The notes beneath the pieces are model-generated. The model worked only from the letters and a program-made list of their open reading frames with translations. It was not told the DNA's origin and made no database searches. Position numbers and translations under genes: made by a program. This document shows positions 6,027 to 23,100 of a stretch of 25,084 nt of DNA, in pieces. Origin of the DNA: a virus; IMG/VR virus record IMGVR_UViG_3300020442_002760, positions 1 to 25,084 of that record, one strand, 5' to 3'. Within the stretch, counting starts at the first letter, position 1. Every line of letters starts with the position of its first letter.

Positions 6027-6821
6027 ATGGCTGATAAGGATTTTGGTGTAAGGGGATTAAGATTGGTTGGTCCCTCTGGGACTCCAACCATTCATAGTCC
6101 TAACAATTTAAATGTAAATGCTGTAAATGTCGCTATCAGTACCGATGTTTCAATCGGTGGAACTTGTACTGCCTATCAATTTGATGGTGCAATCGCTGGT
6201 TGGATTATTGGTAACGACTCAAGTAATCATTATATTTTCAGTGGTCCTGGTTTAGGTTCTTCATCTTTTTATGATCCAGATATACATCTTGTTAGAGGAC
6301 AAAAATATATCTTCCACAATAGATCAACAGGACATCCTTTCAGGATCCAAAGTACACCTAACGGTAGTGCGGGTACGCAATATAACCTTGGTGTAGTTAA
6401 CAATGATGGTTCTGCACCAACAGACATCATATTTGATGTTCCTTTTGATGCTCCAAATATTTTGTACTATCAGTGTACAGCACATCCTAGTATGGGTGGA
6501 AGACTTATAATTGGATCTGAATTTAAATCAACCACCCCATCAACAGCATATACTTTAGAATCTAAAGATGCTGGAACATTGGTGCAGATGACTCAGAATG
6601 TAACTGTTCCAACATCAACATTTTCTGTAGGTGATGCTGTTACGCTTTATAATAAAGGTGTAGCTAGTAGAACTATTATAGAATCTTCTGGTGCTACTAT
6701 AAGATGGGCAGGACAAGCTAGTCCTTTAACAGGAACAAGAACAATAGTTCAATATGGAGTCGCTACACTATTATGTGTAGGAACTGATGAATATTTAATT
6801 AGCGGTGCTGGATTAACATAA
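6027..6821 (+). CDS. Tail-associated protein with a cupredoxin-like domain (264 aa)
   Basis: Residues about 55-163 look like a cupredoxin (plastocyanin-fold) domain. GHPFRI places a histidine at 103, and LYYQCTAHPSMGGRLII places Cys150, His153 and Met156, matching the order of type I copper ligands (His...Cys-His-Met). The Cys-x2-His-x2-Met spacing is tighter than plastocyanin's Cys-x2-His-x4-Met, so copper binding is possible but unproven. The remaining C-terminal region (about 165-264) is Ser/Thr-rich beta-type sequence ending EYLISGAGLT. There is no signal peptide, so it is not a photosynthetic electron carrier; its place in a tail-gene run suggests a virion protein. I recall similar YYxCxxHxxMGG motifs in marine phage structural proteins. 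The next gene starts directly after its stop codon. Confidence 0.8.
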   Translation: MADKDFGVRGLRLVGPSGTPTIHSPNNLNVNAVNVAISTDVSIGGTCTAYQFDGAIAGWIIGNDSSNHYIFSGPGLGSSSFYDPDIHLVRGQKYIFHNRSTGHPFRIQSTPNGSAGTQYNLGVVNNDGSAPTDIIFDVPFDAPNILYYQCTAHPSMGGRLIIGSEFKSTTPSTAYTLESKDAGTLVQMTQNVTVPTSTFSVGDAVTLYNKGVASRTIIESSGATIRWAGQASPLTGTRTIVQYGVATLLCVGTDEYLISGAGLT

Positions 6822-8899: not shown

Positions 8900-11800
8900 A
8901 TGGCTGAATTTAGACTTGGCAGATTAAAATTCAACTGGAGAGGTGACTGGACTGTAAGCACCGCTTTTGTCATTGATGACATTATCAAGTATGGTGCTAA
9001 TACTTACGTATGTAAGGTAAATCATACCTCTTCAGGCAACGAGAACCTTTTTTACTCTGCAGATTTTAGTTACTGGTCTCTGCATACTGAAGGTATTGTC
9101 CATAAAGGTGATTGGGTAGCAAATACTTGGTATAAGTTAAACGATATCTATAAGTATGGTAATACTCAGTATAGAGTAACAACTGCACATACTTCTGGTG
9201 CCGATTTTGTTGATGCAAATCATGTAAAGTATGTTGAGTCTTTCAACTTTGAAGATACTTGGAATACCTCAACACAGTATCAAGAAGGTGATGTTGTAAC
9301 CTATGGTGGTTATACATATGTTGCCAAAGCTCTTAACACCAATAAACCACCTGCATATAATGATGCTCTCTGGGATGTCATCACTACTGGATTCAATGTA
9401 GTTGGTGAATGGAATAATTCTACTGCATATGTACCAGGTGATGTTGTTCAATATGGTGGTAACACTTATGTTGCTACTACAAACTCCACAAATATTGTCC
9501 CAACAACTACTGCAAATTGGAAGCTAGTAAGTAAGGGTATCAATTGGAGAGGAAATTGGGATGCAAGTACAACCTATCAACTAGGTGATACTGTTAAGCA
9601 TTTAAGTAACAGTTATATTGGTGTCGCGACTGCTGGTAGTACAGGTCAAGATCCTTCGACTGATTCTAATGGAGATTATTGGAATCAGTTGGTAGAGGGT
9701 GCTGCCAATAATGTTATGACCACCAAGGGTGACATGGTGTTCTATAACACTGGTGCCGCAAGATTACCCGTTGGTACTAATGGTCAGGCATTAGTAGTCA
9801 GTGAAACTGGTGTTCCTCAGTGGGAAGATAATGGTGTTAGTCATCCAGTCTTCTATGTAACCGAAGAAGGTAGTGATAATAATGATGGATCAAATATTGG
9901 CAGAGCATTTGCATCTGTTAAGAAGGCTTGTAGAGAAGTAGGACTTACTACTAACAGAGCATCTATCTATGTAAAAGCAGGTACTTATAATGAGCAACTT
10001 CCTATTGTTGTTCCTGAAGGTGTATCTATTGTTGGTGACAACCTAAGATCTACAAAGATTAGACCAAAGTCTGGTGTTGCTCATCAACAGCATTTAACTC
10101 TTGCTACTGCACCATCTTCAGTTTCTTATGGTTCTTCTATCTTTACTGGTGATGGAACTAAGTGTGCATCTATTCTAGACTCTTCATACGACGAAAAAAC
10201 CATTGAAATTCGTTGTATTTCTGGTGGTCTATGGGATACTAGTGATACTTGGGAGAATGGTGCTAGTGATATTGCGATTACTAATGTAGAAACCAGACCA
10301 AACGAAGAAGCTAATATGTTCTTAATGAGCAATGCTTCAATGCTCAAGGACCTATTGATGGAAAATCTGACAGGTTTTGAACCTGCAGGTATTGTAACTA
10401 CCAGAACAGTGACTATTTCTGAAACTGTAATGACTGGTAGTGATTTCTTCCCTGATTTGGTAGGAACTACAGTTGTTGGTGCTGGTATATCAGTTGGTAC
10501 TAAGGTTTCTGGATTTGTGAACTCCACTACTGTTGAAGTTGATAAGCCACAAACTGTTAGTTCTGCAACTAGTGTTACTTTTGAGGCACAAGATTATGAC
10601 CCCAATAACGCTAAGATTAGGGGTGTATTCGTTGCACTAAATCCTGAAAGTAGAATTATCAAATCACCTTATGTATCTAACTGTTCTGCATCTTCAGTAA
10701 AAGGTATTGGTGCAGTTGTAGATGGTGGTGTTCATCGTCAGTTTGTTGATGGATCTGCAACTCCATCAAACAAATCTATTGTGTTTGACTCCTTTACCAA
10801 TATTCATGATGAAGGTATTGGTTTCTGGATTACTGATGGTGCTGTTGCTGAAACTGTATCTTGTTTCACATACTACTGTCACACTAGTTACGCTGCAACC
10901 CGTGGTGGAAGACTCAGATCACTGGTAGGTAACTCTTCTTGGGGTAAGTATGGTGTTGTTAGTTCTGGATTCAGCCCTCTTGAAATTCCAAGAGAAGGAC
11001 AAATTGAAGGTTTAGTTCTTGAATTTGATCCAGATACTTTATCAGGAAATTTCCAGCAAGGTGAAAGAATTAGAGGTGGAACATCAGAGGCAATTGGACA
11101 ACTGAATAGTGTTCAAGGTGCATTACAAAATAATCTCTATTATAGTGTAATTACTGAAGGTGCTGTTGGTGTTGGTACTGGATTTGCTGGTGGTGAAGTA
11201 ATTACAGGTCAAACTTCTGGTGCTACTGCAACTCTAAGAGCAAATGGAGCAACTGCTAACAGAGGTCAGAATGGATTTGCTCTGGTTCTTTCTGGGCTAG
11301 GAACTAATCCACCTGTTAATATTAACGGTAGTATTGAGTTTGAAACTGGTTTAGGTAATGGTGGATTTAACAGTGATAATATTACTGGTGCCGACCCATT
11401 TACATTCGTTATTAGTGGTGTTTCTCAACTAGGACCTACTGGTAAAGGAAATATTGTTGTTGATAGAGGTCAATTAACTACTTCTGGCGCTGCACATACT
11501 GGCGGTAATACTTCTATTATTAAGTATCCAGTTCCTGGAGATACTACAACCTTCTTGACTCCTGCTGCTCCATCTGAAAATGTTATTCAGGTAGGTAGCA
11601 TTTCTGGATTTACTCCAGGTGGATATGCACTATCTCCAACGGGTGAGTTGATGAAGATCAACAGTTTCCCAACAGCAAACTCTATGAATGTAGATAGAGC
11701 TCAGGATGGTGCTGCAACTGCAGGATCTTATTCAATTGGTGATTCTATTGTTGCTGTTGGTACTACTAGTTATATTAATACTGCTGAAATTAATAAAGAT

Positions 11801-12577
11801 TTCACTGGTGTTTCTACTCAGTTCAGAGCAACGATATCACAACTCTTTGCAGGAACTGAAGGTTCATACCTAAAGATTGATGATGAATTTGTAAAGGTAA
11901 CTGGCATTACCACTGATACATTTGGACTAACTACTGTTACTCTAGTTGAAGAGAAGGCAGCGAAGGCATTTGATGAGCAGGATATTAAGATCCGCTATAT
12001 CTATAGTCAAGCAAGACTAACTGGACATGACTTCCTACAGGTTGGTACTGGTGGTACTTACACAACTAACTGGCCTGCTGCTCCAATAAATCAACCAGTT
12101 CCTTCTTATGAAATTACTGAAGAGTTCCCAGGTCGTGTATTCTATGTTTCTACTGATAATGAAGGTAACTTCCGTGTAGGTAAGTACTTTAAGGTTAACC
12201 AAGCAACTGGTTCTGCAACTTTGAATGCTAGTGCATTCGATCTATCTGGTCTAACTTCATTACGATTGGGTTCTATTGGTGCTCAATTGGGTGCTCAAAT
12301 TAATGAGTTCTCTACTGACGGTTCAATGAGTCAGAATAGTAATGAGAAAGTTCCAACTCAGGCTGCAGTTAGAACTTATGTTGGAACTCAGGATGCTGCG
12401 ACTTTACTTGCCGCACAAAATGCAGCACAGTTGGGAATTGCAACTGCTACGCAACATGCTAATGCAGGTGTTGGTACTGCAATATCTCATGCTAATGCTG
12501 GAATTGGCACTCTAAGAACGGAGAATGCTACACAGATTCAAGCATCTGAGTATTTCATTAGCCAATGTATTGGCTAA
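8900..12577 (+). CDS. Giant tail/baseplate fibre protein with five N-terminal repeats and a beta-helix-like body (1225 aa)
   Basis: Residues about 12-265 hold five tandem modules of roughly 50 residues with the pattern W(R)G-W...TxYxxGDVVxYGGNTYVA, starting near 12, 67, 117, 167 and 215. The pattern resembles chitin-binding type 3 / CBM5/12-like modules, suggesting glycan binding. A linker (TTKGDMVFYNTGAARLPVGTNG) follows, typical of phage fibres. From about residue 316 a pectate-lyase-like beta-helix start is seen (FYVTEEGSDNNDGSNIGRAF, SIYVKAGTYNEQLPIVVPEG). No catalytic residues can be assigned. The C-terminus has a fibre-type stretch (VFYVSTDNEGNFRVGKYFKV) and an Ala-rich, possibly coiled-coil end. 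AGGAG at 8882-8886 precedes the ATG. The stop codon sits in a perfect inverted repeat. Probable receptor- or glycan-binding virion component. Confidence 0.88.
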   Translation: MAEFRLGRLKFNWRGDWTVSTAFVIDDIIKYGANTYVCKVNHTSSGNENLFYSADFSYWSLHTEGIVHKGDWVANTWYKLNDIYKYGNTQYRVTTAHTSGADFVDANHVKYVESFNFEDTWNTSTQYQEGDVVTYGGYTYVAKALNTNKPPAYNDALWDVITTGFNVVGEWNNSTAYVPGDVVQYGGNTYVATTNSTNIVPTTTANWKLVSKGINWRGNWDASTTYQLGDTVKHLSNSYIGVATAGSTGQDPSTDSNGDYWNQLVEGAANNVMTTKGDMVFYNTGAARLPVGTNGQALVVSETGVPQWEDNGVSHPVFYVTEEGSDNNDGSNIGRAFASVKKACREVGLTTNRASIYVKAGTYNEQLPIVVPEGVSIVGDNLRSTKIRPKSGVAHQQHLTLATAPSSVSYGSSIFTGDGTKCASILDSSYDEKTIEIRCISGGLWDTSDTWENGASDIAITNVETRPNEEANMFLMSNASMLKDLLMENLTGFEPAGIVTTRTVTISETVMTGSDFFPDLVGTTVVGAGISVGTKVSGFVNSTTVEVDKPQTVSSATSVTFEAQDYDPNNAKIRGVFVALNPESRIIKSPYVSNCSASSVKGIGAVVDGGVHRQFVDGSATPSNKSIVFDSFTNIHDEGIGFWITDGAVAETVSCFTYYCHTSYAATRGGRLRSLVGNSSWGKYGVVSSGFSPLEIPREGQIEGLVLEFDPDTLSGNFQQGERIRGGTSEAIGQLNSVQGALQNNLYYSVITEGAVGVGTGFAGGEVITGQTSGATATLRANGATANRGQNGFALVLSGLGTNPPVNINGSIEFETGLGNGGFNSDNITGADPFTFVISGVSQLGPTGKGNIVVDRGQLTTSGAAHTGGNTSIIKYPVPGDTTTFLTPAAPSENVIQVGSISGFTPGGYALSPTGELMKINSFPTANSMNVDRAQDGAATAGSYSIGDSIVAVGTTSYINTAEINKDFTGVSTQFRATISQLFAGTEGSYLKIDDEFVKVTGITTDTFGLTTVTLVEEKAAKAFDEQDIKIRYIYSQARLTGHDFLQVGTGGTYTTNWPAAPINQPVPSYEITEEFPGRVFYVSTDNEGNFRVGKYFKVNQATGSATLNASAFDLSGLTSLRLGSIGAQLGAQINEFSTDGSMSQNSNEKVPTQAAVRTYVGTQDAATLLAAQNAAQLGIATATQHANAGVGTAISHANAGIGTLRTENATQIQASEYFISQCIG

Positions 12578-12589: not shown

Positions 12590-12597
12590 TATAAATA
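12590..12597 (+). promoter_or_regulatory. T4-type late promoter (TATAAATA)
   Basis: Exact TATAAATA in the intergenic region, 26 bases before the ATG at 12624. AAAGGA (12607-12612) lies between as a likely ribosome binding site. Confidence 0.85.
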
Positions 12598-12623: not shown

Positions 12624-12944
12624 ATGGCTTCTGGTATTTTAGGACAATCAGCACCGTCCGCAACTACAAATACATCTGTGTATACGGTTCCTGCCAGTAC
12701 TCTTTCTGTTGTTAATGTTAACATTTTGAACAGATCAACTAGTGCAGCTGCAGTAGTTAGACTTGCTCTTGCTGCTAGTGGATCCCCTACGGATGCTGAA
12801 TACATTGAATATGATGTATCAATTCCAAAAGGTGGAGTTCTTGAAAGAACTGGATTAGCACTTAATGCTTCTAAGCAAGTTGTCGTGTATTCATCTACTG
12901 CTGATGTATCCGTAAATGTTTACGGTATTGAGCAAGCAGTCTAA
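12624..12944 (+). CDS. Small beta-rich virion-like protein (106 aa)
   Basis: The whole protein is one module: a start such as TNTSVYTVPASTLSVVNVNI, a middle EYIEYDVSIPKGGVLERTGL, and an end ASKQVVVYSSTADVSVNVYG. The same arrangement (YTAPAG...VTISIVN, then E-Y-x-D-Y...G...L-x-AGQ, then V-x-F-x-x-G) occurs twice in tandem in residues 1-211 of the protein at 21490-23100. It is therefore probably a structural module used both alone and fused. It has its own consensus late promoter and ribosome binding site, consistent with high late expression, perhaps as a decoration or tail protein. Exact role unknown. Confidence 0.83.
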   Translation: MASGILGQSAPSATTNTSVYTVPASTLSVVNVNILNRSTSAAAVVRLALAASGSPTDAEYIEYDVSIPKGGVLERTGLALNASKQVVVYSSTADVSVNVYGIEQAV

Positions 12945-12984: not shown

Positions 12985-14058
12985 ATGGCAGCAGACGTAT
13001 TAACTTATAATGCTCTGGCAGAAATTAATCAAGAATTAAGAGCAGAGAATGTAGGATTAGGATCTGCTATTATTGAAGCAGGTGGTGCCCTGCCTGGTGG
13101 TGGCGGCGGCGGTGGTGCTGCATCTGAAGTAAACCAAGATAATATTGATATTGTTAGATGGGCAGGATCTCCAAACTTTGGATTGTCTTGTATGATTCCA
13201 AAGGTTCCAGCAAGCGGAGCATCTTGGACTAGTGGATTTAAAGTTTGCGATACTACTTCTTATTACCGTTGCGGTGCTAGCTGTAATTGGACTGTTCCCT
13301 CTGGTGTAACTTGCGCCCGTTTCCAAATCTGGGGTGCTGGAGGTGGTTCTGCTACTGGTTGTTGCTGTGGTGGATCACCTAATGGTGGATCTGGTGCATA
13401 TGCATCTGTAATCATTCCAGTATCACCAGGTGATACATATACTTTATGTGCTGGTTGTGCTTATTGTTGTTACAATGAGAGAGCACAGATGACCGCAGAT
13501 GGTAATCCATCATATGTTCAGGGAAATAATTTAAATAACTTCTGTGCAGAAGGTGGTGAGTCAAGTATTTGGTGTGAAGTAAAAACCAGACAACAGATTG
13601 CTGCACAGGCTGGTAGCTATTGCATGTATGCTGGATCATGTATTTGTAATAGTGGATCGGATTATTGTTCTAATTCTACTGAAACTGGTGGAGTAGGACG
13701 CTGTAATGATTGTAGAAATCATTATCAATCTACTGCAAGTTGCAAAACTTTCTATGGTACTTCAACTGGTGGTTCTGGTGTTTATGGACTCCCAGGTCAA
13801 TTTAGTTACTTTAGATACCAGTATGGTGCATATAGCCCAACATTCCGTCACCCAGGAGTTTATGGATTCCCAACATGTTCATGTTGCTGCAATCAAACTA
13901 TGAGTAATGAAAATGCAGGATGCTGCTATCAAGCTTGTTCCTGCGCTATCATGAGAGTTCCTGGTGCAGGATCTTGGGGATATACTACTTGTGGTGGTGA
14001 TACCAGTGGATGTTCTGATGTTGGTAGAATGGGTATGGTTTGTGTTTCATACTGTTGA
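12985..14058 (+). CDS. Cysteine-rich, glycine-rich adhesin-like tail protein (357 aa, 33 Cys)
   Basis: The N-terminus (1-40) is helical and charged, then comes a poly-Gly linker. The core (about 83-118) reads FKVCDTTSYYRCGASCNWTV then PSGVTCARFQIWGAGGG, matching the hairpin module of the other glycine-rich proteins (SWTAPSGVT...VGGG). Cysteine clusters follow (GCCCGG, LCAGCAYCCY, CSCCCN, GCCYQACSC) and the end is RMGMVCVSYC. By count 33 of 357 residues are Cys, extreme for a virion protein, suggesting dense disulphides or metal binding. It is a clear paralogue of the protein at 14797-15864. GAGGA (12972-12976) lies 8 bases before the ATG. There is no signal peptide, so oxidation would have to happen in the lysed cell, in the particle or by a dedicated factor. 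Confidence 0.87.
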   Translation: MAADVLTYNALAEINQELRAENVGLGSAIIEAGGALPGGGGGGGAASEVNQDNIDIVRWAGSPNFGLSCMIPKVPASGASWTSGFKVCDTTSYYRCGASCNWTVPSGVTCARFQIWGAGGGSATGCCCGGSPNGGSGAYASVIIPVSPGDTYTLCAGCAYCCYNERAQMTADGNPSYVQGNNLNNFCAEGGESSIWCEVKTRQQIAAQAGSYCMYAGSCICNSGSDYCSNSTETGGVGRCNDCRNHYQSTASCKTFYGTSTGGSGVYGLPGQFSYFRYQYGAYSPTFRHPGVYGFPTCSCCCNQTMSNENAGCCYQACSCAIMRVPGAGSWGYTTCGGDTSGCSDVGRMGMVCVSYC

Positions 14059-14065
14059 TTTAAAT

Positions 14066-14073
14066 TATAAATA
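14066..14073 (+). promoter_or_regulatory. T4-type late promoter (TATAAATA)
   Basis: Exact TATAAATA between the first cysteine-rich gene and the gene at 14105, 31 bases before its ATG. Confidence 0.85.
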
Positions 14074-14104
14074 ACTACTAGGAAAACAGAGGTCGTAAAG
14101 GACA

Positions 14105-14788
14105 ATGGCAAACATTACATCATCATTTACCTATTTGCTTCCTACGGAAGATTATGTATCTGGTGTCTCCACCAATAGAAGTGGGAGTTACACTTATACT
14201 GGTCCAGAAAATTTTCCAGTTCAGATTAATGAACTGTCTGGAGAGGTAGAAAAAATCAATGTTACTGTTGCACCTGAAGGATCTCTCATAAAGACAATCA
14301 ATGCAACGGATGCTGCACAACTGCCAATGGCGTATGCATTATCTCATCAATTGATTGATAACTATTCATATGATTACACATATGAAAATGAGACTCAATC
14401 TAATGGAGATGTGTACAGCAAAGCAGTAACCCCAGACTTGAGAGATGTGTATGAAGTTAGATGGGACTTTGCTACTAGCACTTGGGTATTTGATCAGGTT
14501 CTAAAACCCCTAGAGAATAAGTATACTGACGAAGCAAAAGCTAGAAAATCAAAGATGGAGACCTATAGGGACTCCTACGATTTTGGTGCTGAACTTAATA
14601 CTAAAATCGACCATTACATTGCTGGTATAGGAACTTATATTGAAAATAATCCATATCATCGCACTTGGAAATTTGTAACTCTTCCTGATCCAGTAGGCAC
14701 AATACCTAAAATGCCTATCGATGTAATGCAGGCAATTTCAAATGTGCCAATGCCTACAGATTCACATTTAAACTTTCCTGGAGGTTGA
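14105..14788 (+). CDS. Unrecognised protein between the two cysteine-rich genes (227 aa)
   Basis: I do not recognise a family. The protein is soluble, with many Tyr, Asp, Asn and Thr residues and no cysteine, in sharp contrast to both neighbours. The first half looks beta-rich (SFTYLLPTEDYVSG, GSYTYTGPENFPVQ); a central part (VYEVRWDFATSTWVFDQVLK) leads into a charged helical segment (NKYTDEAKARKSKMETYRD). The C-terminus is Pro-rich (LPDPVGTIPKMPIDVM, PMPTDSHLNFPGG). AGAGG (14088-14092) precedes the ATG and a consensus late promoter lies upstream. The cysteine-rich gene that follows starts 8 bases after its stop and has no late promoter of its own, so the two are likely co-transcribed; a chaperone, adaptor or partner role is possible but not shown. 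Confidence 0.82.
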   Translation: MANITSSFTYLLPTEDYVSGVSTNRSGSYTYTGPENFPVQINELSGEVEKINVTVAPEGSLIKTINATDAAQLPMAYALSHQLIDNYSYDYTYENETQSNGDVYSKAVTPDLRDVYEVRWDFATSTWVFDQVLKPLENKYTDEAKARKSKMETYRDSYDFGAELNTKIDHYIAGIGTYIENNPYHRTWKFVTLPDPVGTIPKMPIDVMQAISNVPMPTDSHLNFPGG

Positions 14789-14796
14789 TTAGATAA

Positions 14797-15864
14797 ATGG
14801 ATGTATTAGTATACAGTGCTTTAAACGAGCAAGCAGCACTTAAAAAAGAAATTGCAGAACGACAGCAATGTCTATTTGATTTAAAAGCAAATAGTGCTGG
14901 TGGCGGTGCGGCAGCAGGTAGTCCTGTTACGATGGCTCAAGAATGGCTAACAACTGGTGAAAAGGAACATTGGCTATGTCCAGAAGATACTAGTAAGTGG
15001 AAAATATATGAGGGTAGTGGTTGGACTGATGGATTTAAAGTCTGTGATACCTCTGGATATTATCGTTGCGGTAGAAACTGTACTTGGACTGTACCTAGTG
15101 GAGTAACACAAGCTAGATTCCAAATCTGGGGTGCTGGTGGTGGCGCAAACAAACCACCTTGTTGCTGTGGACATACACCATTTGGTGCTACTGGAGCATA
15201 TGCATCTGTAATTGTACCAGTACAAGCAGGATGGACTTATACTTTATGTGCTGGTTGTGCATATTGTTGCTATGGATATACTACAGAGTCTGCAAGAAGG
15301 TGGAGTGGTTGTCATTCCTTTGTTCAAGGATGTAAGTTAGATAATTTCTGTGCTGATGGTGGTCAGGCAGAAATGGGTAATTGGATGGCAATGTATGGTA
15401 CTCCATGCACATGTAGATTCAATTATTATACTAGTGGTAATGGTGGTAATTTCTGTAACTGTGGTACTGACTGGTGTTATGTTGGAGAAACCATGACAGG
15501 TACAATTCCCTTTGTTCCTGGTTCTGGTTATCACGGTACTATTAAAGATATTGAGAATCCAACTGCGGAGAATGTTATCTATGGTCTTCGTGGAATGTGG
15601 CCAAAGACATATTGGGATGGCAGCCATTATGGATTCGAGCAGCATCCACCCATCTATGGATTCTTAGGTGCAACTGGTGATTGTACAATGTGTTGCCCAT
15701 GCTATACTAGTGGTAACTGCTGTGGATGCCAGTGTAATGCAACTAATACTCAATGCTTAAGAACCCCAGGAGCTGGTGGATGGGGTTCACATGCAATGGG
15801 TGGTGGAAACGGTCTATACGGTGACTCTGGTAGATTGGGTATGGTTTGCGTATCTTACAAGTAA
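14797..15864 (+). CDS. Cysteine-rich, glycine-rich adhesin-like tail protein, second paralogue (355 aa, 30 Cys)
   Basis: Same architecture as the protein at 12985-14058: a helical N-terminus (ALNEQAALKKEIAERQQCLF), a Gly/Ala linker, FKVCDTSGYYRCGRNC and TWTVPSGVTQARFQIWGAGGG, then clusters CCCGH, LCAGCAYCCYG, CTMCCPCY and CCGCQCN, ending GRLGMVCVSYK. By count it has 30 Cys. The two copies keep the first cluster in register (LCAGCAYCC is identical) but the middle regions differ, as expected for paralogues under diversifying selection. GGAGG (14780-14784) is 12 bases before the ATG. It is probably transcribed from the late promoter at 14066. Likely an exposed tail adhesin; whether the cysteines form disulphides or bind metal cannot be told from sequence. 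Confidence 0.87.
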   Translation: MDVLVYSALNEQAALKKEIAERQQCLFDLKANSAGGGAAAGSPVTMAQEWLTTGEKEHWLCPEDTSKWKIYEGSGWTDGFKVCDTSGYYRCGRNCTWTVPSGVTQARFQIWGAGGGANKPPCCCGHTPFGATGAYASVIVPVQAGWTYTLCAGCAYCCYGYTTESARRWSGCHSFVQGCKLDNFCADGGQAEMGNWMAMYGTPCTCRFNYYTSGNGGNFCNCGTDWCYVGETMTGTIPFVPGSGYHGTIKDIENPTAENVIYGLRGMWPKTYWDGSHYGFEQHPPIYGFLGATGDCTMCCPCYTSGNCCGCQCNATNTQCLRTPGAGGWGSHAMGGGNGLYGDSGRLGMVCVSYK

Positions 15865-15895: not shown

Positions 15896-15929
15896 TACCA
15901 TCGGTTGACTAAATAAATCACCGATGGTA
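15896..15929 (+). repeat. Inverted repeat around the sugar-island promoter
   Basis: Perfect 10-base arms, taccatcggt (15896-15905) and accgatggta (15920-15929), with a 14-base centre. The left arm touches the -35 box and the right arm enters the -10 box. It could be an operator or, as RNA followed by aatttta, a terminator for the upstream late genes. Confidence 0.8.
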
Positions 15930-15933
15930 TAAT
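15905..15933 (+). promoter_or_regulatory. Sigma70-type promoter for the sugar-modification island
   Basis: TTGACT at 15905-15910 and TATAAT at 15928-15933 with a 17-base spacer. The hexamers and spacer equal those at 24754-24782. The first gene starts at 15958. This points to early transcription by host RNA polymerase. Confidence 0.75.
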
Positions 15934-15957: not shown

Positions 15958-17091
15958 ATGAATAAGGCATTTTTCATTAATGGCGGAGCAGGGCGCGTAC
16001 TCTGTTCTATGCCAGCGTTAGAGAAATACGCAGAGACTCATGATGACTTCATCATTGTCTCAGAATCTTGGTCTGAATTGTTTTTAAACAATACAAAACT
16101 AAGAGATCATGTGTATCCAATGGGTCATAAAGATCTTTTTGAAGAGAAATTAAAAGATAAAGAAATTGTATCTCCAGAACCATATCGAGTAAATGCATAT
16201 TTTAATCAGAAGTGTAATCTGATTCAAGCATTTGATATTATTATTAATGAATTAGATGCACCTCGCGAAACTGGAAAAATCAATTTAGATTTGAATAAAG
16301 AAGATCAAATAAATGGTCATAATCTTGTTGCTGAAGTAAAGCAAACACTAGGAAAAGATAAGGTTATTGTATTTCAACCCTTCGGTCAAAGCACTAAAGT
16401 AGAAGGTAACTTTATTTTTGATTCTACTGGTAGAAGTTTTGAAGTAAGTAATGTAATTTCGATTATTGAAGAACTTAATAAGGATTTTGGTGTGATCCTT
16501 ATGTCTGAGATTGAAATTCCTGGGTGGTCTTCTCTTGGAGTTGCGAAACCAAATGGGATGGGATTGAACGGATGGGCAGGTGTTATCAATGCCGCAGATC
16601 ACTTTTTAGGATGTGATAGTGTTGGACAGCATCTATCATATGCTGTAGGAAAACCAACTACTGTAGTAATTGGATCTACATATCCCGAGAATATTTCATA
16701 TCCTAAAAGTGATAAGTTTAATGTTATTGATAATGGTAGTGGTAGGCGTAGGTATAGTCCTATCAGGATCACATTTGATATGAATGTTGATCGTAATAAT
16801 GAGGATTTAATGGTTCTTGATGATAAACAAATTTCTAATATTATTAAAACCATCAAGGGTCCTGAAATTAAGAAGGTATCTAAATTAAAACCAGGTATTG
16901 CACCAACTGCACCAGAAAAGACCAAGACTCTTACTCCTGGAGTGATGCCCAAAAAGGATATAGATATCTCGGCACCAGTTAAAAAGTTTGCAGAACCTTT
17001 CCTCACTCCAAGAGCAAAGAAAAAGAAAAAACCAATTGATGAACTGCTAGAGATTGAAGCAGTAAAGCCAGCAAAAACGATTAAGTCCTGA
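15958..17091 (+). CDS. GT9/heptosyltransferase-like glycosyltransferase with a basic C-terminal tail (377 aa)
   Basis: The N-terminus (FFINGGAGRVLCSMPALEKY) and the segment at about 203-240 (NGWAGVINAADHFLGCDSVG, then HLSYAVGKPTTVVIGST) match the GT-B glycosyltransferase family 9 pattern, where the second segment contacts the nucleotide sugar. GT9 enzymes typically move heptose from ADP-heptose, fitting the HldE/HldD-like genes downstream. Residues about 300-377 are an unusual low-complexity tail rich in Pro, Lys and Thr (APTAPEKTKTLTPGVMPKKD) with a lysine cluster (RAKKKKKP), not a usual GT9 part. TGAGGT (15943-15948) precedes the ATG. It is first behind the sigma70-type promoter and 9 bases from the carbamoyltransferase. 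Family call fairly good; substrate inferred from context. Confidence 0.75.
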   Translation: MNKAFFINGGAGRVLCSMPALEKYAETHDDFIIVSESWSELFLNNTKLRDHVYPMGHKDLFEEKLKDKEIVSPEPYRVNAYFNQKCNLIQAFDIIINELDAPRETGKINLDLNKEDQINGHNLVAEVKQTLGKDKVIVFQPFGQSTKVEGNFIFDSTGRSFEVSNVISIIEELNKDFGVILMSEIEIPGWSSLGVAKPNGMGLNGWAGVINAADHFLGCDSVGQHLSYAVGKPTTVVIGSTYPENISYPKSDKFNVIDNGSGRRRYSPIRITFDMNVDRNNEDLMVLDDKQISNIIKTIKGPEIKKVSKLKPGIAPTAPEKTKTLTPGVMPKKDIDISAPVKKFAEPFLTPRAKKKKKPIDELLEIEAVKPAKTIKS

Positions 17092-17094
17092 GGT
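17089..17094 (+). promoter_or_regulatory. Ribosome binding site overlapping the upstream stop codon
   Basis: TGAGGT contains both the TGA stop of the glycosyltransferase and the AGG core of the Shine-Dalgarno for the ATG at 17101, implying coupled translation. Confidence 0.65.
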
Positions 17095-17100
17095 TAAATC

Positions 17101-18897
17101 ATGAGCATTATTGTTTCGGTTGCTCGCGGTCACAACGCGAGTACTACCTTAATGGTTAATGGTAAAATTATTTTTTATCTAGAAGAAGAACGCCTTTCTA
17201 GGTGGAAACGAGATGGATGTCCTATGATGGGCATCAAGAAAGTATTTGATTATGTTGATCATATTGATCATCTTGTTGTATGCCATACTCATCGTAATGG
17301 TCCACAGTGTGATTGGACTGGTGAAGATATCTACTATGGTATGGTTAGAAAACTTACTAGAAAGAAAGTTAAGTTCTCTACAACATATATTGATACGATT
17401 CATCATCAATTGCATGGCACTGCAGCATTTTATAATTCTGGATTTGATAGTGCAGCGGTATTGATTGCCGATGGTGCTGGTAGTTTTTTGAAAACAAAAG
17501 GTATAGAAGATACTGTTTTTGAGTTTGAGACTATTTTTAAATTTGAAAAAAATCAACCGCCTGAGATTGTATATAAGCATCTTGGCACTGAAGAAGCGAT
17601 TGGTTATCTTAAATTAGATAGTGATCGGGAAATATTTGCTACTGAATATCCTGGTCTTGTAAAAGAGTACGAAGCTATCACTAGATACTGTGGATTCAGT
17701 TCAATTGATGCTGGAAAGACTATGGGTCTTTCTCCATATGGAAAACCAAATGATAAAATTCCCCCTATGTTTAGAGGTGGATTTGGAAACCGAGATTTAT
17801 TCAAACCAAATTATCCAAATGGTGCCTATGTAATTGGTGATCGTTATCCAGAAATTATTAAGGATGTTCCTCAGCATAAGCAGGGGCAGTATACTGATTT
17901 CCAGAAAGATATGGCGTATGCTATTCAGAAAGAAACTGAAGATGAAATGATCAAACTCATCCAAAAAGCACATGACTTAACTGGTGAGAAAAATATTGTT
18001 ATTTCTGGTGGATATGGTTTGAATTGTGTTGCTAACTATAAATTTAAAAAAGCATTCCCAGATTTCAATTTCTTTGTTGAACCAATTTCTCATGATGGTG
18101 GAACATCTATTGGTGGTGCATATCATGTTTATCTGAATAAAGATAAAAAGACTTACCCACAATTACCAGACATTACTCCTACAGATTCTTTATATTATGG
18201 TCCTTTGTATGACCCCGATGAGTATCTAAACGAAATAGATCTTGAAACAGATCAGTATGAAGTAACTGATACATCATATGATGATGTTGCAAAATTAATT
18301 CGTGAAGGAAATATTGTAACTATCTTCCAAGGAAGATCTGAAGGTGGTCCTCGCGCACTTGGTAATAGATCTATTCTTTTTGATCCTACTATCAAAGATG
18401 GTAAGGACATTGTAAACAAAGTAAAGCGTCGTGAATTCTTCCGACCTTTTGCATGTTCTATTCTTGCTGATAAAGTTCATGACTGGTTTGATCTTGCTGG
18501 AATGGAAGAAAGTCCTCATATGATGTATGCTGTAGATTGTCTACCAGGTGTTGAAGAAAAGATTCCTTCTGTTATTCATATTGATGGAACTTGTAGAATT
18601 CAAACAGTTACACCTGAGCAGAACAATCACTATTACAATTTGATTAGTGCATTTGAAAAACTTTCAGATACTCCTATCTTGTTCAATACTTCATTTAATC
18701 TTGGTGGAGATCCATTAGTTGAAACCATAGAAGATGCTATTGATACTCTGGCTAATAGTGATATTAACTATATGTACTTACCAGAAATACAAAAACTAGT
18801 TTTTGTTCCTGTTTCAGAATCTAGAAAAGTTTATCACGATAGAGATTTTGTTCAAAATGATTCTAGTATTACTACAGCTGTTTATGATGAACTATGA
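17101..18897 (+). CDS. NodU/CmcH-family O-carbamoyltransferase (598 aa)
   Basis: Members use carbamoyl phosphate and ATP to make carbamoyl-adenylate and transfer the carbamoyl group to a sugar hydroxyl. The N-terminal Kae1-like domain shows GHNAS at 10-14, LEEERLSRWK at about 27-36, the histidine motif HHQLHGTAAF near 100-110, and LIADGAGSF. The C-terminal YrdC-like domain is marked by EGGPRALGNRSIL at about 413-425 and RREFFRPFACSILAD, and the end by LFNTSFNLGGDPLVET. The length matches the family (about 550-600). In Pseudomonas, the NodU-family enzyme WapO is linked to 7-O-carbamoyl heptose of the LPS core, which makes the neighbouring heptose genes notable. It overlaps the next gene by ATGA. 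Confidence 0.92.
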   Translation: MSIIVSVARGHNASTTLMVNGKIIFYLEEERLSRWKRDGCPMMGIKKVFDYVDHIDHLVVCHTHRNGPQCDWTGEDIYYGMVRKLTRKKVKFSTTYIDTIHHQLHGTAAFYNSGFDSAAVLIADGAGSFLKTKGIEDTVFEFETIFKFEKNQPPEIVYKHLGTEEAIGYLKLDSDREIFATEYPGLVKEYEAITRYCGFSSIDAGKTMGLSPYGKPNDKIPPMFRGGFGNRDLFKPNYPNGAYVIGDRYPEIIKDVPQHKQGQYTDFQKDMAYAIQKETEDEMIKLIQKAHDLTGEKNIVISGGYGLNCVANYKFKKAFPDFNFFVEPISHDGGTSIGGAYHVYLNKDKKTYPQLPDITPTDSLYYGPLYDPDEYLNEIDLETDQYEVTDTSYDDVAKLIREGNIVTIFQGRSEGGPRALGNRSILFDPTIKDGKDIVNKVKRREFFRPFACSILADKVHDWFDLAGMEESPHMMYAVDCLPGVEEKIPSVIHIDGTCRIQTVTPEQNNHYYNLISAFEKLSDTPILFNTSFNLGGDPLVETIEDAIDTLANSDINYMYLPEIQKLVFVPVSESRKVYHDRDFVQNDSSITTAVYDEL

Positions 18898-19304
18898 AAA
18901 CAATATGGTGTAATGGGACATTCGATGTCCTTCACCCAGGGCATATAGAATTATTTAAAGTTGCTAAATCCCTGGGTGATAAGGTCATTGTTGCAACAGA
19001 TAGTGATGAAAAAATTAGAAAAGATAAGGGTTCTTCTAGACCCATAAATGATATCTGTTCAAGATATGCTATGCTTTCTGCAATCAAATATATTGATCAA
19101 GTTTTAATTTTTAATAATAGAAAGCATCTTGAAGACTTGATTAAATTATATTCTCCTGATATCATATTATTAGGAAACGATTGGGAAAATGGAGATGTTG
19201 TTGGTAGAGAGTATGCCAAAGAAGTTAGATTTCTTCCCAGGTATGGTGGATACTCTAGTACTAAAATTATTGAGAAAGTAAATGAAAGTTCTGCTACTCG
19301 GTGA
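18894..19304 (+). CDS. HldE C-terminal-type (RfaE2) sugar-phosphate nucleotidyltransferase (136 aa)
   Basis: The N-terminus has the nucleotidyltransferase signature CNGTFDVLHPGHIELF with His14 and His17 forming HxGH. Other family motifs are VIVATDSDEKIRKDKGSSRP, the PDIILLGNDWE segment, and YSSTKIIEKV near the end (about 120-129). HldE-type enzymes transfer AMP from ATP to heptose-1-phosphate; related enzymes use glycerol-3-phosphate with CTP. The heptose reading is preferred because a PfkB kinase like HldE's other half is encoded next and an HldD-like epimerase follows. Length agrees with the roughly 130-residue HldE nucleotidyltransferase domain. It overlaps the carbamoyltransferase by 4 bases and the kinase by 23 bases. 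Confidence 0.87.
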   Translation: MKTIWCNGTFDVLHPGHIELFKVAKSLGDKVIVATDSDEKIRKDKGSSRPINDICSRYAMLSAIKYIDQVLIFNNRKHLEDLIKLYSPDIILLGNDWENGDVVGREYAKEVRFLPRYGGYSSTKIIEKVNESSATR

Positions 19305-20028
19305 TAGTTGTGAAGATGAATATATCTATGGTAGATGTAACAGGATAAGTCCAGAAGCACCAGTACCGATTTTAAAGTATGCAAAAATAAAAACAAAATC
19401 TGGCATGGCTGGTAATGTTTGTTTAAACTTACAGGCATTTGGTCTTGATGTAACTTTTCTAACTAATTCAGAAAGAATCGTTAAAACTAGATTCATTGAC
19501 GAAAAATCAAATCAACAAATTCTTAGAATGGATAATGAGGAGAGAGTAAAACCTCTCCTTGTTCCTGTATCAACTGAAAGTTTTGATGCTGTTGTTATAT
19601 CTGACTATGATAAAGGATACTTAACTCATGATAAAATTTTTGAGATAGTAGAAAATTCTTCTTGTCCTGTTTTTATTGATAGTAAAAAAACAATTTTACC
19701 AAATAAAGAAAATTGTTTTGTTAAGATTAATGATATTGAGTATGAAAATCTAAGAGAAGACTGTTATATTGATAATCTTATTGTTACTAAAGGATCTGAG
19801 GGGTGTGTTTATAAACAAACACTATATCCTGCAGAGAAGGTCAATGTGTATGATGTAGTTGGTGCAGGAGATACTTTTCTTTCTGCTCTAGTTTATGGAT
19901 ATATAACATGTGGAGATATTCAAGTATCTCTTATGTTGGGTAACAGAGCAGCTGCTAAAGCAGTTCAGCAACCAGGTACTTATATTTTGAGTGAGGATGA
20001 TGTAAATGAGATACTGTATCGACATTGA
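19282..20028 (+). CDS. HldE N-terminal-type (RfaE1, PfkB family) heptose-phosphate kinase (248 aa)
   Basis: PfkB-family sugar kinase. The start VLLLGDSCEDEYIYGRCNRI followed by SPEAPVP is characteristic of the HldE kinase half. KSGMAGNVCLNL (about 39-50) corresponds to its sugar-binding GGAxN region. The C-terminal signature DVVGAGDTFLSAL (191-203) supplies the likely catalytic Asp197. In HldE this domain phosphorylates D-glycero-D-manno-heptose-7-phosphate at C1. At 248 residues it is about 70 shorter than the E. coli kinase domain (about 318); the part after FLTN (near 61) looks compressed. The bacterial fusion is split here and in reverse order (nucleotidyltransferase first). It overlaps both neighbours by 23 bases, indicating a compact translationally coupled operon. 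Confidence 0.87.
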   Translation: MKVLLLGDSCEDEYIYGRCNRISPEAPVPILKYAKIKTKSGMAGNVCLNLQAFGLDVTFLTNSERIVKTRFIDEKSNQQILRMDNEERVKPLLVPVSTESFDAVVISDYDKGYLTHDKIFEIVENSSCPVFIDSKKTILPNKENCFVKINDIEYENLREDCYIDNLIVTKGSEGCVYKQTLYPAEKVNVYDVVGAGDTFLSALVYGYITCGDIQVSLMLGNRAAAKAVQQPGTYILSEDDVNEILYRH

Positions 20029-20335
20029 CGGAACTATCTGTAGTCCTACGGTGGGGAGGAACTATCACGAAGCAGAACCCTGGTATGATAGAATAGAAAG
20101 AGTAAATAAAATGTATGATGAGGGTCACTACATAATCTACTTTACTGCAAGAGCTATGGGAAGATTTGCTGGTGATCCTGACGCTGCATCTAAAGCAACT
20201 GCACTGATGAAAGATTTAACTACAGAACAGTTAAATACTTGGGGGTGTAAGTATCATGAATTAATTCTTGGTAAACCACACGCCGACCTATTCATCGACG
20301 ACAAAGGAATTAACTGCGATGACTTCTTCAATTAA
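20006..20335 (+). CDS. Small HAD-superfamily phosphatase (109 aa), possible GmhB substitute
   Basis: HAD motif I is CIDIDGTI with Asp6 and Asp8. Motif II is YFTARA with Thr47. Lys90 in LGKPHAD is the motif III candidate, and LFIDDKGIN (Asp98, Asp99) is motif IV. No sizeable cap domain fits into 109 residues, so substrate choice may come from oligomer contacts or be broad. ADP-heptose synthesis needs a phosphatase (GmhB, about 190 residues) between kinase and nucleotidyltransferase; this gene, lying beside both, is the obvious candidate, but the assignment is contextual. Similar small HAD proteins occur in capsule and sugar clusters. The ATG (MRYCIDIDG) overlaps the kinase gene by 23 bases and the stop overlaps the cupin gene by 17 bases. 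Confidence 0.8.
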   Translation: MRYCIDIDGTICSPTVGRNYHEAEPWYDRIERVNKMYDEGHYIIYFTARAMGRFAGDPDAASKATALMKDLTTEQLNTWGCKYHELILGKPHADLFIDDKGINCDDFFN

Positions 20336-20672
20336 ATATGTCCCCAAAGGATGGGGGTATGAGAAGTGGATAGTCAACAACGAAAAATATTGCGGCAAAC
20401 TCTTGTTCATTGAGAAAAACAAGAGGTGCTCATGGCACTATCATAAAATAAAAGACGAGACCTTCTATTTGCAGAGTGGTCTCATCTCACTGTATTATGG
20501 TTATGATGAAAATTTAGCAAAAGCAGATATTATTGTTCTTGCACCTGGTGATAGATTTCATATTCCAACTGGATTAAAACATCAAATGGTTGCTCTAGAA
20601 GACGCTGAACTATTTGAATTTTCAACCCAGCATTTTGATGAGGATAGTTATAGAATACTCACTGGAGATTAA
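20319..20672 (+). CDS. Cupin-domain protein (117 aa)
   Basis: Single-domain cupin. Motif 1 is CSWHYHKIKDETFYLQSG with metal-ligand candidates His40, His42 and Glu47. Motif 2 is PGDRFHIPTGLKHQMVAL with His88. The start VPKGWGYEKWIVNNEKYCGK resembles cupins fused to or acting with sugar nucleotidyltransferases and mannose-6-phosphate isomerases, so a sugar isomerase, epimerase or binding role is likely; the substrate is not visible. The ATG at 20319 (MTSSIKYVPKGWGYEKW) is preferred over a longer in-frame start because it limits overlap with the HAD gene to 17 bases and starts the conserved region. It is the last + strand gene of the island and converges with the epimerase, the 3' ends overlapping by 14 bases. 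Confidence 0.82.
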   Translation: MTSSIKYVPKGWGYEKWIVNNEKYCGKLLFIEKNKRCSWHYHKIKDETFYLQSGLISLYYGYDENLAKADIIVLAPGDRFHIPTGLKHQMVALEDAELFEFSTQHFDEDSYRILTGD

Positions 20673-21453
20673 GATATTTGGGGATGGTTGTAAATATATA
20701 ATCTCCCCATAGTTTTTTCGCACAAGTATAATCTTGATATTTACCTTTTAAATGGTCGGGGAATGGAATGTATTCTATATCTCCACCATATTTTTTTATG
20801 CAGCATTCCGCAACAAATTGAAAACTAACAGGAGCACTAGTACCTAAATCATAGATACCAGATTTTTTCCCATTATCTAATACTAAATTTACAATATCAT
20901 CAACACACACAAAGTCTCTTAAGAAGTCTTGAGATCCTTCAAATAGTTTTAGTTTACCTGTTTCTTTAATTTCTTTGGCAAACTTGCTTACAGGACTTGC
21001 TTGATTACCTTTGTGCCCTTCACCATCACCATATACATTGAAGTATCTGAATCCTTGAATGAGTGGAAACTTGTCTAAGTTATCTTCAACCCAGTAGTCA
21101 ACAGTTACTTTAGATAGTGCATAGTAATTCAAAGGATTAATAATTCCTACTTGATTTCCATATACGGATGCCGATGAAGCATACTTTACAGGTATGCTAT
21201 GCTTAGCAGCCATCGTAAATAACCATCGACTGAAGTCTATGTTGTGCTCATAAATTTTATCCAGATTTGTTTCAGTTGTTGAAGATATTGCCCCTTGATG
21301 AATGATCATCTCAACATCATTCCAACTTTTGAAATAATTTCTAAAGTGATGTATGTCTGATTGTTCTACACCGTAAACTTTTTTTCCTCTTCTTTCTAAT
21401 TCGGTATGAAATTTTTTACCAATAAAACCTTTGTGACCTGTAAGAATAATCAT
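20659..21453 (-). CDS. hldD: ADP-L-glycero-D-manno-heptose 6-epimerase-like SDR enzyme (264 aa)
   Basis: Extended SDR epimerase. The NAD(P)-binding motif TGHKGFIG is at 5-12. The catalytic residues are seen in YASSASVYG (Ser93/Ser94) and YYALSK (Tyr111, Lys115). Several segments are typical of HldD: IIHQGAISSTTE, GFRYFNVYGDGEGHKGNQAS, LFEGSQDFLRDFV and YIPFPDHLKGKYQ. HldD converts ADP-D-glycero-D-manno-heptose to the L-glycero epimer. At 264 residues it is about 45 shorter than the E. coli enzyme, mostly through shorter loops. It is the only confident - strand gene in the window. No good Shine-Dalgarno precedes the ATG. A sigma70-type promoter lies about 60 bases upstream on the - strand, inside the 5' end of the gene at 21490. 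Confidence 0.9.
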   Translation of the reverse strand: MIILTGHKGFIGKKFHTELERRGKKVYGVEQSDIHHFRNYFKSWNDVEMIIHQGAISSTTETNLDKIYEHNIDFSRWLFTMAAKHSIPVKYASSASVYGNQVGIINPLNYYALSKVTVDYWVEDNLDKFPLIQGFRYFNVYGDGEGHKGNQASPVSKFAKEIKETGKLKLFEGSQDFLRDFVCVDDIVNLVLDNGKKSGIYDLGTSAPVSFQFVAECCIKKYGGDIEYIPFPDHLKGKYQDYTCAKKLWGDYIFTTIPKYLNLQ

Positions 21454-21489: not shown

Positions 21490-23100
21490 ATGGCGTTTGG
21501 ACTTCTAAATTCTATTATACCAGATCCTAATTCAGTACTCAACCTTTATACAGGACCTGCTGGGAAGTTAACTGTAGGTAAGATAACTATTGGTAGTAAA
21601 AATTATGATCCTTCTAGAATTCAGATTGGATATAAAGATGGAAGTGATGTAAGATATTTTGAGTATAATCGTTATGTAAAATACGGTGAGGTTATTGAAA
21701 CCGAGAATATTTATTTGGGTGAAGGGCAAGAGCTTGTTGTAAGATCTACTGAACCTGATGTAAACTTTTTGTTTTATGGGCAGACATATAGTGATACTGT
21801 AAATCCACAAAGATCAGGAGTTCTTAGCCATACATTATCAACTGGAACAACAAAACAATCCATTTATACTGCACCTGCAGGGTCCCAGTCTTCTGTTACA
21901 ATTTCGATTGTAAATATGGGTCCAGATGTATCCACAGTTAAGTTGGGTATTTCTAATGGTGGGTTGAATGATTTTGATTCTACAGAATACTTAGATTATG
22001 GATTTGATATAGGACCTGGGCAAACATATACCAGACCAAATATTAAATTAGATGCTGGACAATCTTTAATAGGATTTTCAAATCCTAAATCTAAGGTATC
22101 TTTCTTATGTCATGGTAGATTATATTATGCGGTTAGTGGATTACCCACTAGTGATGACTTCATGGTTCTTGGTAATGCAAGAATAACTGGTAATATTGGT
22201 GTTGGAACTACTGCTGCTGTTAAACTAGATGTTCTTGGGGACGCACAGATCTCTGGAATGACCTCAGTTGGTCATAATCTAACTGTTGGTGGTGGATTGG
22301 AAGTTGTGGGAATGTCTACATTCTCAGGCATTTCTGTCAACTCTGGTAATATTACTATCACTAGTATTGATACTAATAGAATGTTCCAAGTTGGTGTTGC
22401 AACCTTCAGAGGAACTACTAAGATTGAAGGTGAAACCGCAAACTTCCAAACTAATACTTTTAAGGCACAATCAAATCAGGTAGTTCTTGGGTTTGGTACT
22501 GCTACTACTTTTAGAGCATATGCTACTGGTGGGTCTGACATTATATTCTTAAATCAACAATTAGAATCCAAAGATTTGTTCAGTAATAATGATCTGATCA
22601 ATAATGTATTGGTTTCTGTAGCATCAGTACCTCAAGGATCTAATCTTACCCTAAACCCTGGGACAAGAATTACTGGAAAATATTATGATGATACTGGCAG
22701 AGCAAGATTTCTTACTTTATCAAATCCTGTAGGTGGTAATGGTAATGCAGTTTGTACTTTTAGTGTAAATGGACCAGATGACAATACGGCTGCTAATGGT
22801 GGAATAGTTATTAAAGGTACTGTAGATAAGCATATTCTCTGGAGACAAAGTTTAAATGCATTTGAATTTACACAGGGAATTAAATTAAATACAGGAACAC
22901 TGGCAATTGCTGATCAAAATGCAACTATTTCTATAGGAGTTACTAATGTCCTTACTGCAGATACAGTGCTTGGATGTGGTATAGTAACAGCAATCACAAA
23001 ATCATCAACAGACACAGAAATACCTACCGCAAGAGCAACCTATCTTGCAGCAAGAAATCTTCAGGCATTAAATTACTGGTTAGCTTCATCTAATAGATAA
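21490..23100 (+). CDS. Virion structural protein with two beta modules and a fibre-like middle (536 aa)
   Basis: Residues about 8-98 and 111-211 are two copies of a module also found alone in the 106-residue protein at 12624-12944 (LNLYTGPAGKLTVGKITI; SIYTAPAGSQSSVTISIVN; repeated E-Y-x-x-Y and GQxL patterns). From about 225 a fibre motif follows (VLGNARITGNIGVGTTAAVK, LDVLGDAQISG), related to the protein at 7727-8506, and then strand-rich shaft sequence (LTVGGGLEVVGMSTFSGISV). The C-terminal half contains GSNLTLNPGTRITGKYYDD and ends in STDTEIPTARATYLAARNLQ. No enzyme motif is visible. A consensus late promoter precedes it, while the - strand sigma70 promoter for the epimerase lies within its first 55 bases. 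Probably a tail fibre or baseplate protein. Confidence 0.85.
   Translation: MAFGLLNSIIPDPNSVLNLYTGPAGKLTVGKITIGSKNYDPSRIQIGYKDGSDVRYFEYNRYVKYGEVIETENIYLGEGQELVVRSTEPDVNFLFYGQTYSDTVNPQRSGVLSHTLSTGTTKQSIYTAPAGSQSSVTISIVNMGPDVSTVKLGISNGGLNDFDSTEYLDYGFDIGPGQTYTRPNIKLDAGQSLIGFSNPKSKVSFLCHGRLYYAVSGLPTSDDFMVLGNARITGNIGVGTTAAVKLDVLGDAQISGMTSVGHNLTVGGGLEVVGMSTFSGISVNSGNITITSIDTNRMFQVGVATFRGTTKIEGETANFQTNTFKAQSNQVVLGFGTATTFRAYATGGSDIIFLNQQLESKDLFSNNDLINNVLVSVASVPQGSNLTLNPGTRITGKYYDDTGRARFLTLSNPVGGNGNAVCTFSVNGPDDNTAANGGIVIKGTVDKHILWRQSLNAFEFTQGIKLNTGTLAIADQNATISIGVTNVLTADTVLGCGIVTAITKSSTDTEIPTARATYLAARNLQALNYWLASSNR
21514..21542 (-). promoter_or_regulatory. Sigma70-type promoter on the - strand for the epimerase gene
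   Basis: Read on the - strand: TTGAGT (21542-21537), 17-base spacer, exact TATAAT (21519-21514). It points toward the epimerase start at 21453 and lies inside the coding region of the late gene at 21490. Confidence 0.65.

Follow-up and report, generated by a model that had tools for sequence, protein, structure and literature searches.

Predicted cysteine-rich tail-fibre tip proteins of marine cyanophages occur in sets of two or three paralogues

Viruses of marine cyanobacteria carry a conserved set of two or three sister proteins, almost a tenth of whose residues are cysteine, that are predicted to fold like the receptor-binding tip of a known cyanophage tail fibre and are accompanied by their own likely folding helper. 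These proteins are very probably late-made, chaperone-folded receptor-binding tips with cysteine-rich distal loops, although their presence in the virion and receptor binding are inferred. The cysteines suggest an unusual, possibly cross-linked or metal-loaded, grip on the host. Proteins with 8-12% cysteine are foreign to what is known of phage tails, yet this set is kept in over two hundred viral contigs and in the isolates P-SSM2, S-SSM7 and S-CAM1, where it is annotated as hypothetical. If they are the receptor-binding tips, they identify candidate host-range determinants for major marine cyanophages and pose the question of how a protein with some 33 cysteines is folded in a reducing cytoplasm and what the thiols do on the outside.

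General features of the locus

The DNA analyzed (the window) is a stretch of 25,084 nucleotides from IMG/VR record IMGVR_UViG_3300020442_002760, a fragment of a P-SSM2-like cyanophage (Kyanoviridae). The following features were identified or predicted:

8900..12577 (+): large tail fibre protein of 1225 aa (phrog_9851 tail fiber protein, E 0; PF02839 CBM_5_12 in five stretches), candidate shaft or carrier for the tips
12590..12597 (+): TATAAATA, T4-type late promoter motif in front of the gene at 12624 that precedes CysA
12624..12944 (+): small tail-fibre-like protein of 106 aa between the large fibre and CysA (phrog_11338 tail fiber protein, E 1.5e-10)
12985..14058 (+): CysA, 357 aa, 33 Cys (9.2%), predicted receptor-binding tail-fibre tip (phrog_35878, E 3.1e-122; P-SSM2 counterpart PSSM2_304)
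14066..14073 (+): TATAAATA, late promoter motif between CysA and M
14105..14788 (+): M, 227 aa, 0 Cys, predicted tail-fibre assembly chaperone
14797..15864 (+): CysB, 355 aa, 30 Cys (8.5%), paralogue of CysA with the same N-terminal DVLxYxALxE segment (phrog_35878, E 1.3e-124; P-SSM2 counterpart PSSM2_306)

An earlier note on this DNA had reported two extremely cysteine-rich paralogues sharing the segment LCAGCAYCC, and this observation proved correct in its counts, in the shared segment and in the relationship of the two proteins, which have 42% identity. The other 19 ORFs called in the window contain 0-3.7% Cys. Among 222 ORFs called greedily in ten loci the median is 1.1%, and the 21 richest are all cysteine-rich ORFs of this locus. 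The third gene, M, belongs to the same conserved unit and was added by the present analysis. Prochlorococcus phage P-SSM2 has the same gene order with PSSM2_304, 305 and 306, all called hypothetical. Both window proteins are full-length members of phrog_35878, a family of unknown function.

Distribution and copy number

A scan of IMG/VR retrieved 62 loci. Counting the named phages and the window as well, 61 loci (55 distinct) show both paralogues, and in all 61 an ORF of 211-288 aa lies between them. The pair, with a cysteine-poor gene between, is not due to chance. Of 53 loci with 2.5 kb on both sides, 52 have exactly two paralogues and one has one. At the same place, between the large tail fibre and the carbamoyltransferase, S-SSM7, Sf-FS3, S-CAM1 and S-CAM3 carry three Cys-rich paralogues followed by a counterpart of M. 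Scans with these (the S-SSM7 type and the S-CAM1/3 type) gave 80 loci (the best 80 of 249) and 77 loci (from the best 80 of at least 291), and 27 of 27 and 62 of 62 well-flanked loci have exactly three paralogues. In the loci of these two types that reach far enough, an M hit follows the last paralogue in 70 of 70 and 68 of 68, while 10 and 5 loci are too short. Single-cell phage contigs show further forms, with one Cys-rich ORF in AG-345-P14, and 73 Cys in 758 aa plus 31 in 290 aa in AG-345-O18. A scan of a genome collection with the family gave 5 pattern matches and 0 relatives.

All 594 complete family members found contain 6.05-12.37% Cys. This is not an unbiased estimate, since two of the three viral-collection scans used patterns with cysteines (GCAYCC and GCCC) and the members were collected with Cys-rich profiles, so that cysteine-poor relatives could be missed. 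The third scan used patterns with little cysteine and still gave only Cys-rich members with those profiles.

To investigate the relationships among the copies, trees were examined for the paralogue positions, which form separate lineages. For the P-SSM2 type the A/B label needs 4 changes over 55 loci (shuffled mean 37). The three positions need 4 changes over 67 loci for the S-SSM7 type and 2 over 59 for the S-CAM type, where 2 is the least possible. In a joint tree of 96 rows each type is one side of a branch (support 99, 100 and 93), so the copies seem to have arisen within each type, and triplication seems to have arisen apart in two lineages, although gene conversion could mimic this. Copies of one type share their first residues (DVLxYxALxE in the P-SSM2 type, MAxYxSYK in the S-SSM7 type, and an R-x-LL segment in five of six S-CAM proteins) and the types differ. 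We infer that this would be expected if all copies of a phage dock on the same partner.

Predicted fold

An AlphaFold2 model of CysA built from 103 sequences (pLDDT 83.8, pTM 0.81) shows an N-terminal helix (5-33), a short helix (46-58) and a TNF-like beta-sandwich with distal loops (about 80-357). The best solved relative of this model is the tail fibre gp24 of cyanophage Pam3 (7ypx; Foldseek E 6.8e-7; VIA Z 12.5, rmsd 3.2 A, 193 residues, 20% identity, model 80-357), a trimeric receptor-binding tip. This is followed by the Bxb1 tail tip (Z 11.3) and the ALK/LTK glycine-rich domain (Z 7.5-8.4), while the next unrelated chain is at Z 2.7. The order of helices and sandwich is that reported for gp24 (PMC9608196), although the helices lie outside the aligned range. 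In BFVD the nearest matches are P-SSM2 and S-CAM3 members, then many glycine-rich domain proteins and Syn9 gp38.

Sequence searches were less informative. CysA gives no Pfam match, and CysB matches Gly_rich_2 (PF21722) only at 11.5 bits (E 0.31), below the gathering cut-off of 24.3 bits. Among the relatives scanned, two of two S-SSM7 proteins and one of two S-CAM1 proteins pass this cut-off, whereas S-CAM3 (19.3 bits) and the others do not. A search of PDB sequences with the family profile returned only coiled-coil geminin at E 1.1 and above, and a search with the window's adhesin at 6822 returned nothing. The claim of the earlier note that the two proteins share a scaffold with the window's glycine-rich adhesins is supported by fold and by a short profile match around W-x-x-P-x-GVT (hhalign, 59 columns, E 2.4e-5, Prob 75.6), but not by BLASTP, as a direct comparison of CysB with the 6822 adhesin gave nothing. 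It looked likely by eye that cysteine replaces glycine at the same position, but the hhalign columns set C155 and C158 against residues other than glycine, and this idea was dropped.

The gene between the paralogues

The window M itself has no match to Phage_tail_APC (PF16778; gathering cut-off 26.6 bits), while its positional counterparts in S-SSM7 and Sf-FS3 pass at 38.4 and 42.6 bits (E 1.1e-9 and 5.3e-11), 2 of 10 M proteins scanned. The window's M family aligns with the S-SSM7, Sf-FS3, S-CAM1 and S-CAM3 genes by hhalign with Prob 97.7 and E 1.4e-12. The AlphaFold2 model of M (pLDDT 93.8) has a beta-rich N-terminal part and an alpha-helical hairpin on the C-terminal side. Its own fold matches are weak, with a best Foldseek E of 0.09 and VIA hits only on the helical hairpin (Z 7.3 or less), and the beta part has no clear PDB fold match. 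A search of PDB sequences with the M profile gave a best E of 0.04. The chaperone function is therefore inferred through the relatives and the position.

Late promoter motifs

The T4-type late motif TATAAATA occurs five times exactly in the window, all on the + strand in gaps before tail genes, including 12590 and 14066. As many matches were found in 8 of 100 shuffles, so the number alone is not striking, but the placement is. Before M the motif is found in 34 of 55 loci of the P-SSM2 type and in 58 of 64 and 43 of 60 loci of the two other types, against a + strand background of 0.02 per 120 nt. Over all 2.44 Mb it occurs 415 times on the + strand and 14 times on the - strand. It is found before the gene preceding CysA in 10 of 44 loci, directly before CysA in 3 of 54 and before CysB in 0 of 55, so CysA and CysB would be read from the promoters of their upstream neighbours. 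Downstream of CysB, a sigma-70-like site (11 of 12; 15905-15933) precedes the sugar genes, apparently a different regulatory unit.

Conservation and arrangement of cysteines

The earlier note had set conservation of the cysteines between related phages as a test, and this was passed. In 103 sequences, 12 positions are 89-100% Cys (C96, 100, 127, 128, 155, 158, 161, 162, 187, 221, 228 and 301), and Cys and Gly are the best conserved residue types (0.59-0.66). Other cysteine positions turn over, with up to 13 changes per column, while the total stays near 33. Between types only some positions are kept (C128 and C187 are above 90% in all three), yet the content stays. Of the 33 Cys of CysA, 32 lie in 80-357. 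Runs of CC, CCC and CxxC exceed shuffles (496 v 336, 89 v 35 and 425 v 335), CxC hardly, and the number of Cys is odd in 49 of 103 proteins.

Pairing of cysteines was sought by co-variation. The phi coefficient over 703 pairs of variable Cys columns is confounded by the A/B split, and a tree-based test of independent pairs gave only 4 usable pairs in the one test run. A count of co-changes on branches, with other residues as controls, singles out C96-C161, which change together on 4 branches, as the one pair of otherwise conserved positions. Three other pairs of 3160 also reach 4, all among variable loop positions. Apart from C96-C161, Cys pairs hardly co-change more than control residues, which gives no support for many fixed pairs, although the loop alignment is uncertain. 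Together these data support a conserved core, possibly bonded or metal-bound, plus a changing set whose number rather than position is kept. Neither disulfide nor metal is proved.

Published virion proteomes and related literature

No virion proteome of a phage with this cassette was found in the literature searched. Virion proteomes of S-SM1, S-PM2 and Syn9 (PMC3037559), S-CREM2 (PMC10665884) and S-SCSM1 (PMC9602691) were examined, but none of these phages was retrieved in tblastn searches with CysA, CysB and five relatives, so they neither support nor refute the presence of the proteins in virions. The S-SCSM1 carbamoyltransferase locus is a different one. Evolution experiments with S-TIM4 (PMC6224464) and S-PM2d (PMC9910659) do not mention cysteine. 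The cysteine-rich form and the fixed paralogue sets were not found described in a literature search in which most subscription journals were not covered, while the fold and the chaperone pairing are already known.

Possible role of the cysteine-rich proteins

The reading that we favor, with a probability of about 0.55 as a whole, is that CysA and CysB are receptor-binding tips of a cyanophage tail fibre. In this view, each has an N-terminal helix that docks on a partner common to both, the fibre encoded just upstream, followed by a TNF-like sandwich whose strands run out into long distal loops, as in Pam3 gp24. In most relatives of this fold the distal loops are glycine-rich, and here they are cysteine-rich. 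The proteins would be made late, with M as their assembly chaperone. The loops would most likely stay reduced while the chaperone holds them in the cytoplasm and become locked by disulfides, within and between subunits, once the phage reaches oxygenated water, giving a rigid, durable tip with changeable surface loops. Conservation, synteny, the predicted fold, the chaperone relationship, the late promoter motifs and the fixed paralogue sets were shown by the analysis, whereas presence in the virion, the trimer, the docking partner, receptor binding, chaperone function and the disulfide step are inferred. The identity as a tip is the firmest part of this reading and is very probable, while the disulfide step is the weakest and remains tentative. 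The odd Cys counts and the weak pairwise co-change argue against fixed disulfides, and the excess of CC and CCC runs suits metal-thiolate clusters at least as well.

The interpretation in the earlier note was partly supported. A tail-tip-like nature and the conservation of cysteines are supported, and its remark that phage tail proteins are rarely so rich in cysteine also fits, but the choice among cross-links, bound metal and a hard tip is not decided by these data.

The main alternative is a metal-loaded tip, in which the clustered cysteines bind zinc, copper or iron as thiolate clusters, either for stiffness in the reducing cytoplasm or to address a host metal-uptake receptor, a thiol version of the Ferrojan or Trojan Horse idea. 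The excess of CC, CCC and CxxC, the odd counts and the little pairwise co-change favor it, and iron in tail-fibre tips has been proposed from HxH motifs (PMC11705849). However, many Cys positions turn over between relatives, unlike a fixed metal site, His is scarce (2 in CysA and 7 in CysB), and no HxH is present in either protein. This alternative is considered unlikely. Still less likely, the variable cysteines might sit on the tip surface and exchange with host surface thiols or disulfides, so that attachment becomes covalent. The cysteines at many loop positions come and go singly while the total stays near 33, as this would allow, but there is no direct evidence and no host partner known, and some hundred free thiols per trimer would be expected to oxidise in seawater. 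It is equally improbable that the proteins are late-expressed proteins of another kind, for example secreted or sugar-locus proteins, that only share the fold and are not in the virion. They are annotated as hypothetical wherever annotated and lie next to a sugar gene block, but the fold, the chaperone-type neighbour, the position behind the large tail fibre in the annotated relatives and the late motif speak against this.

The two- or three-paralogue rule points to hetero-oligomeric fibre tips, and the separate lineages of the positions and the apparently separate triplications fit such tips. In a more far-reaching and unlikely version that the data still allow, the paralogues are obligate subunits of one tip, a 1:1:1 heterotrimer in the three-paralogue phages and an A/B mixed trimer in the P-SSM2 type, holding about a hundred cysteines. 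A single chaperone would build it reduced, and oxidation or metal uptake after lysis would arm it, so that the tip would be a redox- or metal-set switch for attachment to cyanobacteria.

Comparison with known systems

The closest known system is the Pam3 tail fibre gp24 with its chaperone gp25 (PDB 7ypx/7yfw; PMC9608196), which has helix, TNF-like sandwich and distal loops in the same order and an adjacent chaperone gene of the TFA/APC kind. The neighbour M corresponds to that chaperone by relationship and position. Pam3 has one fibre gene with a distal domain of 39% glycine, whereas here there are two or three paralogues with, over the whole protein, about 16% Gly (57 in 357 aa and 56 in 355 aa) and 8.5-9.2% Cys, and M is longer (227 v 162 aa). 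Among Gly_rich_2 adhesins, which include the window's own at 1710 and 6822, the window's ordinary adhesins (293, 1710 and 6822) have 0.4-1.3% Cys and 23-32% Gly over the whole protein. The families phrog_35878 and phrog_4205 carry no function, and the fold, chaperone and paralogue rule are added here.

Agrobacterium phages Milano and 7-7-1, which have disulfide networks, are also tailed phages with unusually many cysteines in virion proteins. Cysteine makes up 2.1% of Milano's structural proteins (PMC10811340) and 2.58% of four capsid proteins of 7-7-1 (PMC12796354), against 8.5-9.2% confined to one cassette here. Some disulfides of Milano must be reduced for contraction, showing that phage particles can carry such bonds. 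The tail of Dishui Lake virophage 2 (PMC12724248) was compared by its authors with the T4 gp37 tip, not a TNF-like fold, and the word cysteine does not occur in that paper. Its consecutive related tail proteins are, however, reported to form a 1:1:1 complex that binds Synechococcus, the one case of a hetero-oligomeric fibre tip that we found in print, which makes the hetero-oligomer reading testable.

Late promoter motifs and tail genes

Five exact copies of the late-promoter motif TATAAATA were found in the window, at 1680, 4300, 12590, 14066, and 21453. All five are located on the + strand and stand in gaps about 30–40 nt before tail genes. In 2.44 Mb of related loci, 415 copies lie on the + strand and 14 on the - strand.

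Some further tail genes were identified in the window:
6027–6821 (+), tail protein (phrog_677, connector)
8900–12577 (+), large tail fibre
12624–12944 (+), tail gene, short stand-alone copy of phrog_11338
21490–23100 (+), tail gene, phrog_11338 copy fused to a longer fibre

The tail protein encoded at 6027–6821 contains the stretch CTAHPSM, a C-x2-H-x2-M pattern that resembles a blue-copper site. The domain of this protein is found in 347 phage records, mostly of Synechococcus and Prochlorococcus phages, but it shows no Pfam match and no clear relative among PDB entries. The large tail fibre contains five stretches of CBM_5_12, a carbohydrate-binding module family. The tail genes at 12624–12944 and 21490–23100 share phrog_11338.

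Cysteine-rich ORFs and a phage glutaredoxin

In L076, the single-cell phage contig AG-345-O18, a 758-aa ORF with 73 cysteines (10016–12289) was found near the equivalent locus, next to a 290-aa ORF with 31 cysteines. A phage glutaredoxin (23141–23377, +; PF00462, E 1.4e-12) is encoded about 7 kb from the cysteine-rich genes in the window and is also present in P-SSM2. T4-like phages often carry a glutaredoxin, so a link between this gene and the cysteines remains purely speculative.

Sugar gene block

A sugar gene block at 15958–21453, behind a strong sigma-70-like site at 15905–15933, comprises a heptosyltransferase-like gene (match under cut-off) and genes for a carbamoyltransferase, a cytidylyltransferase, a PfkB kinase, a cupin, and an epimerase. 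The P-SSM2 gene in the place of the window gene at 20313–20669 (+) is annotated as cysteine dioxygenase. The window gene, however, matches Cupin_2 just under the cut-off and D-lyxose isomerase weakly, and lies in this sugar block, suggesting that a sugar-type cupin is more likely than the function annotated in P-SSM2.
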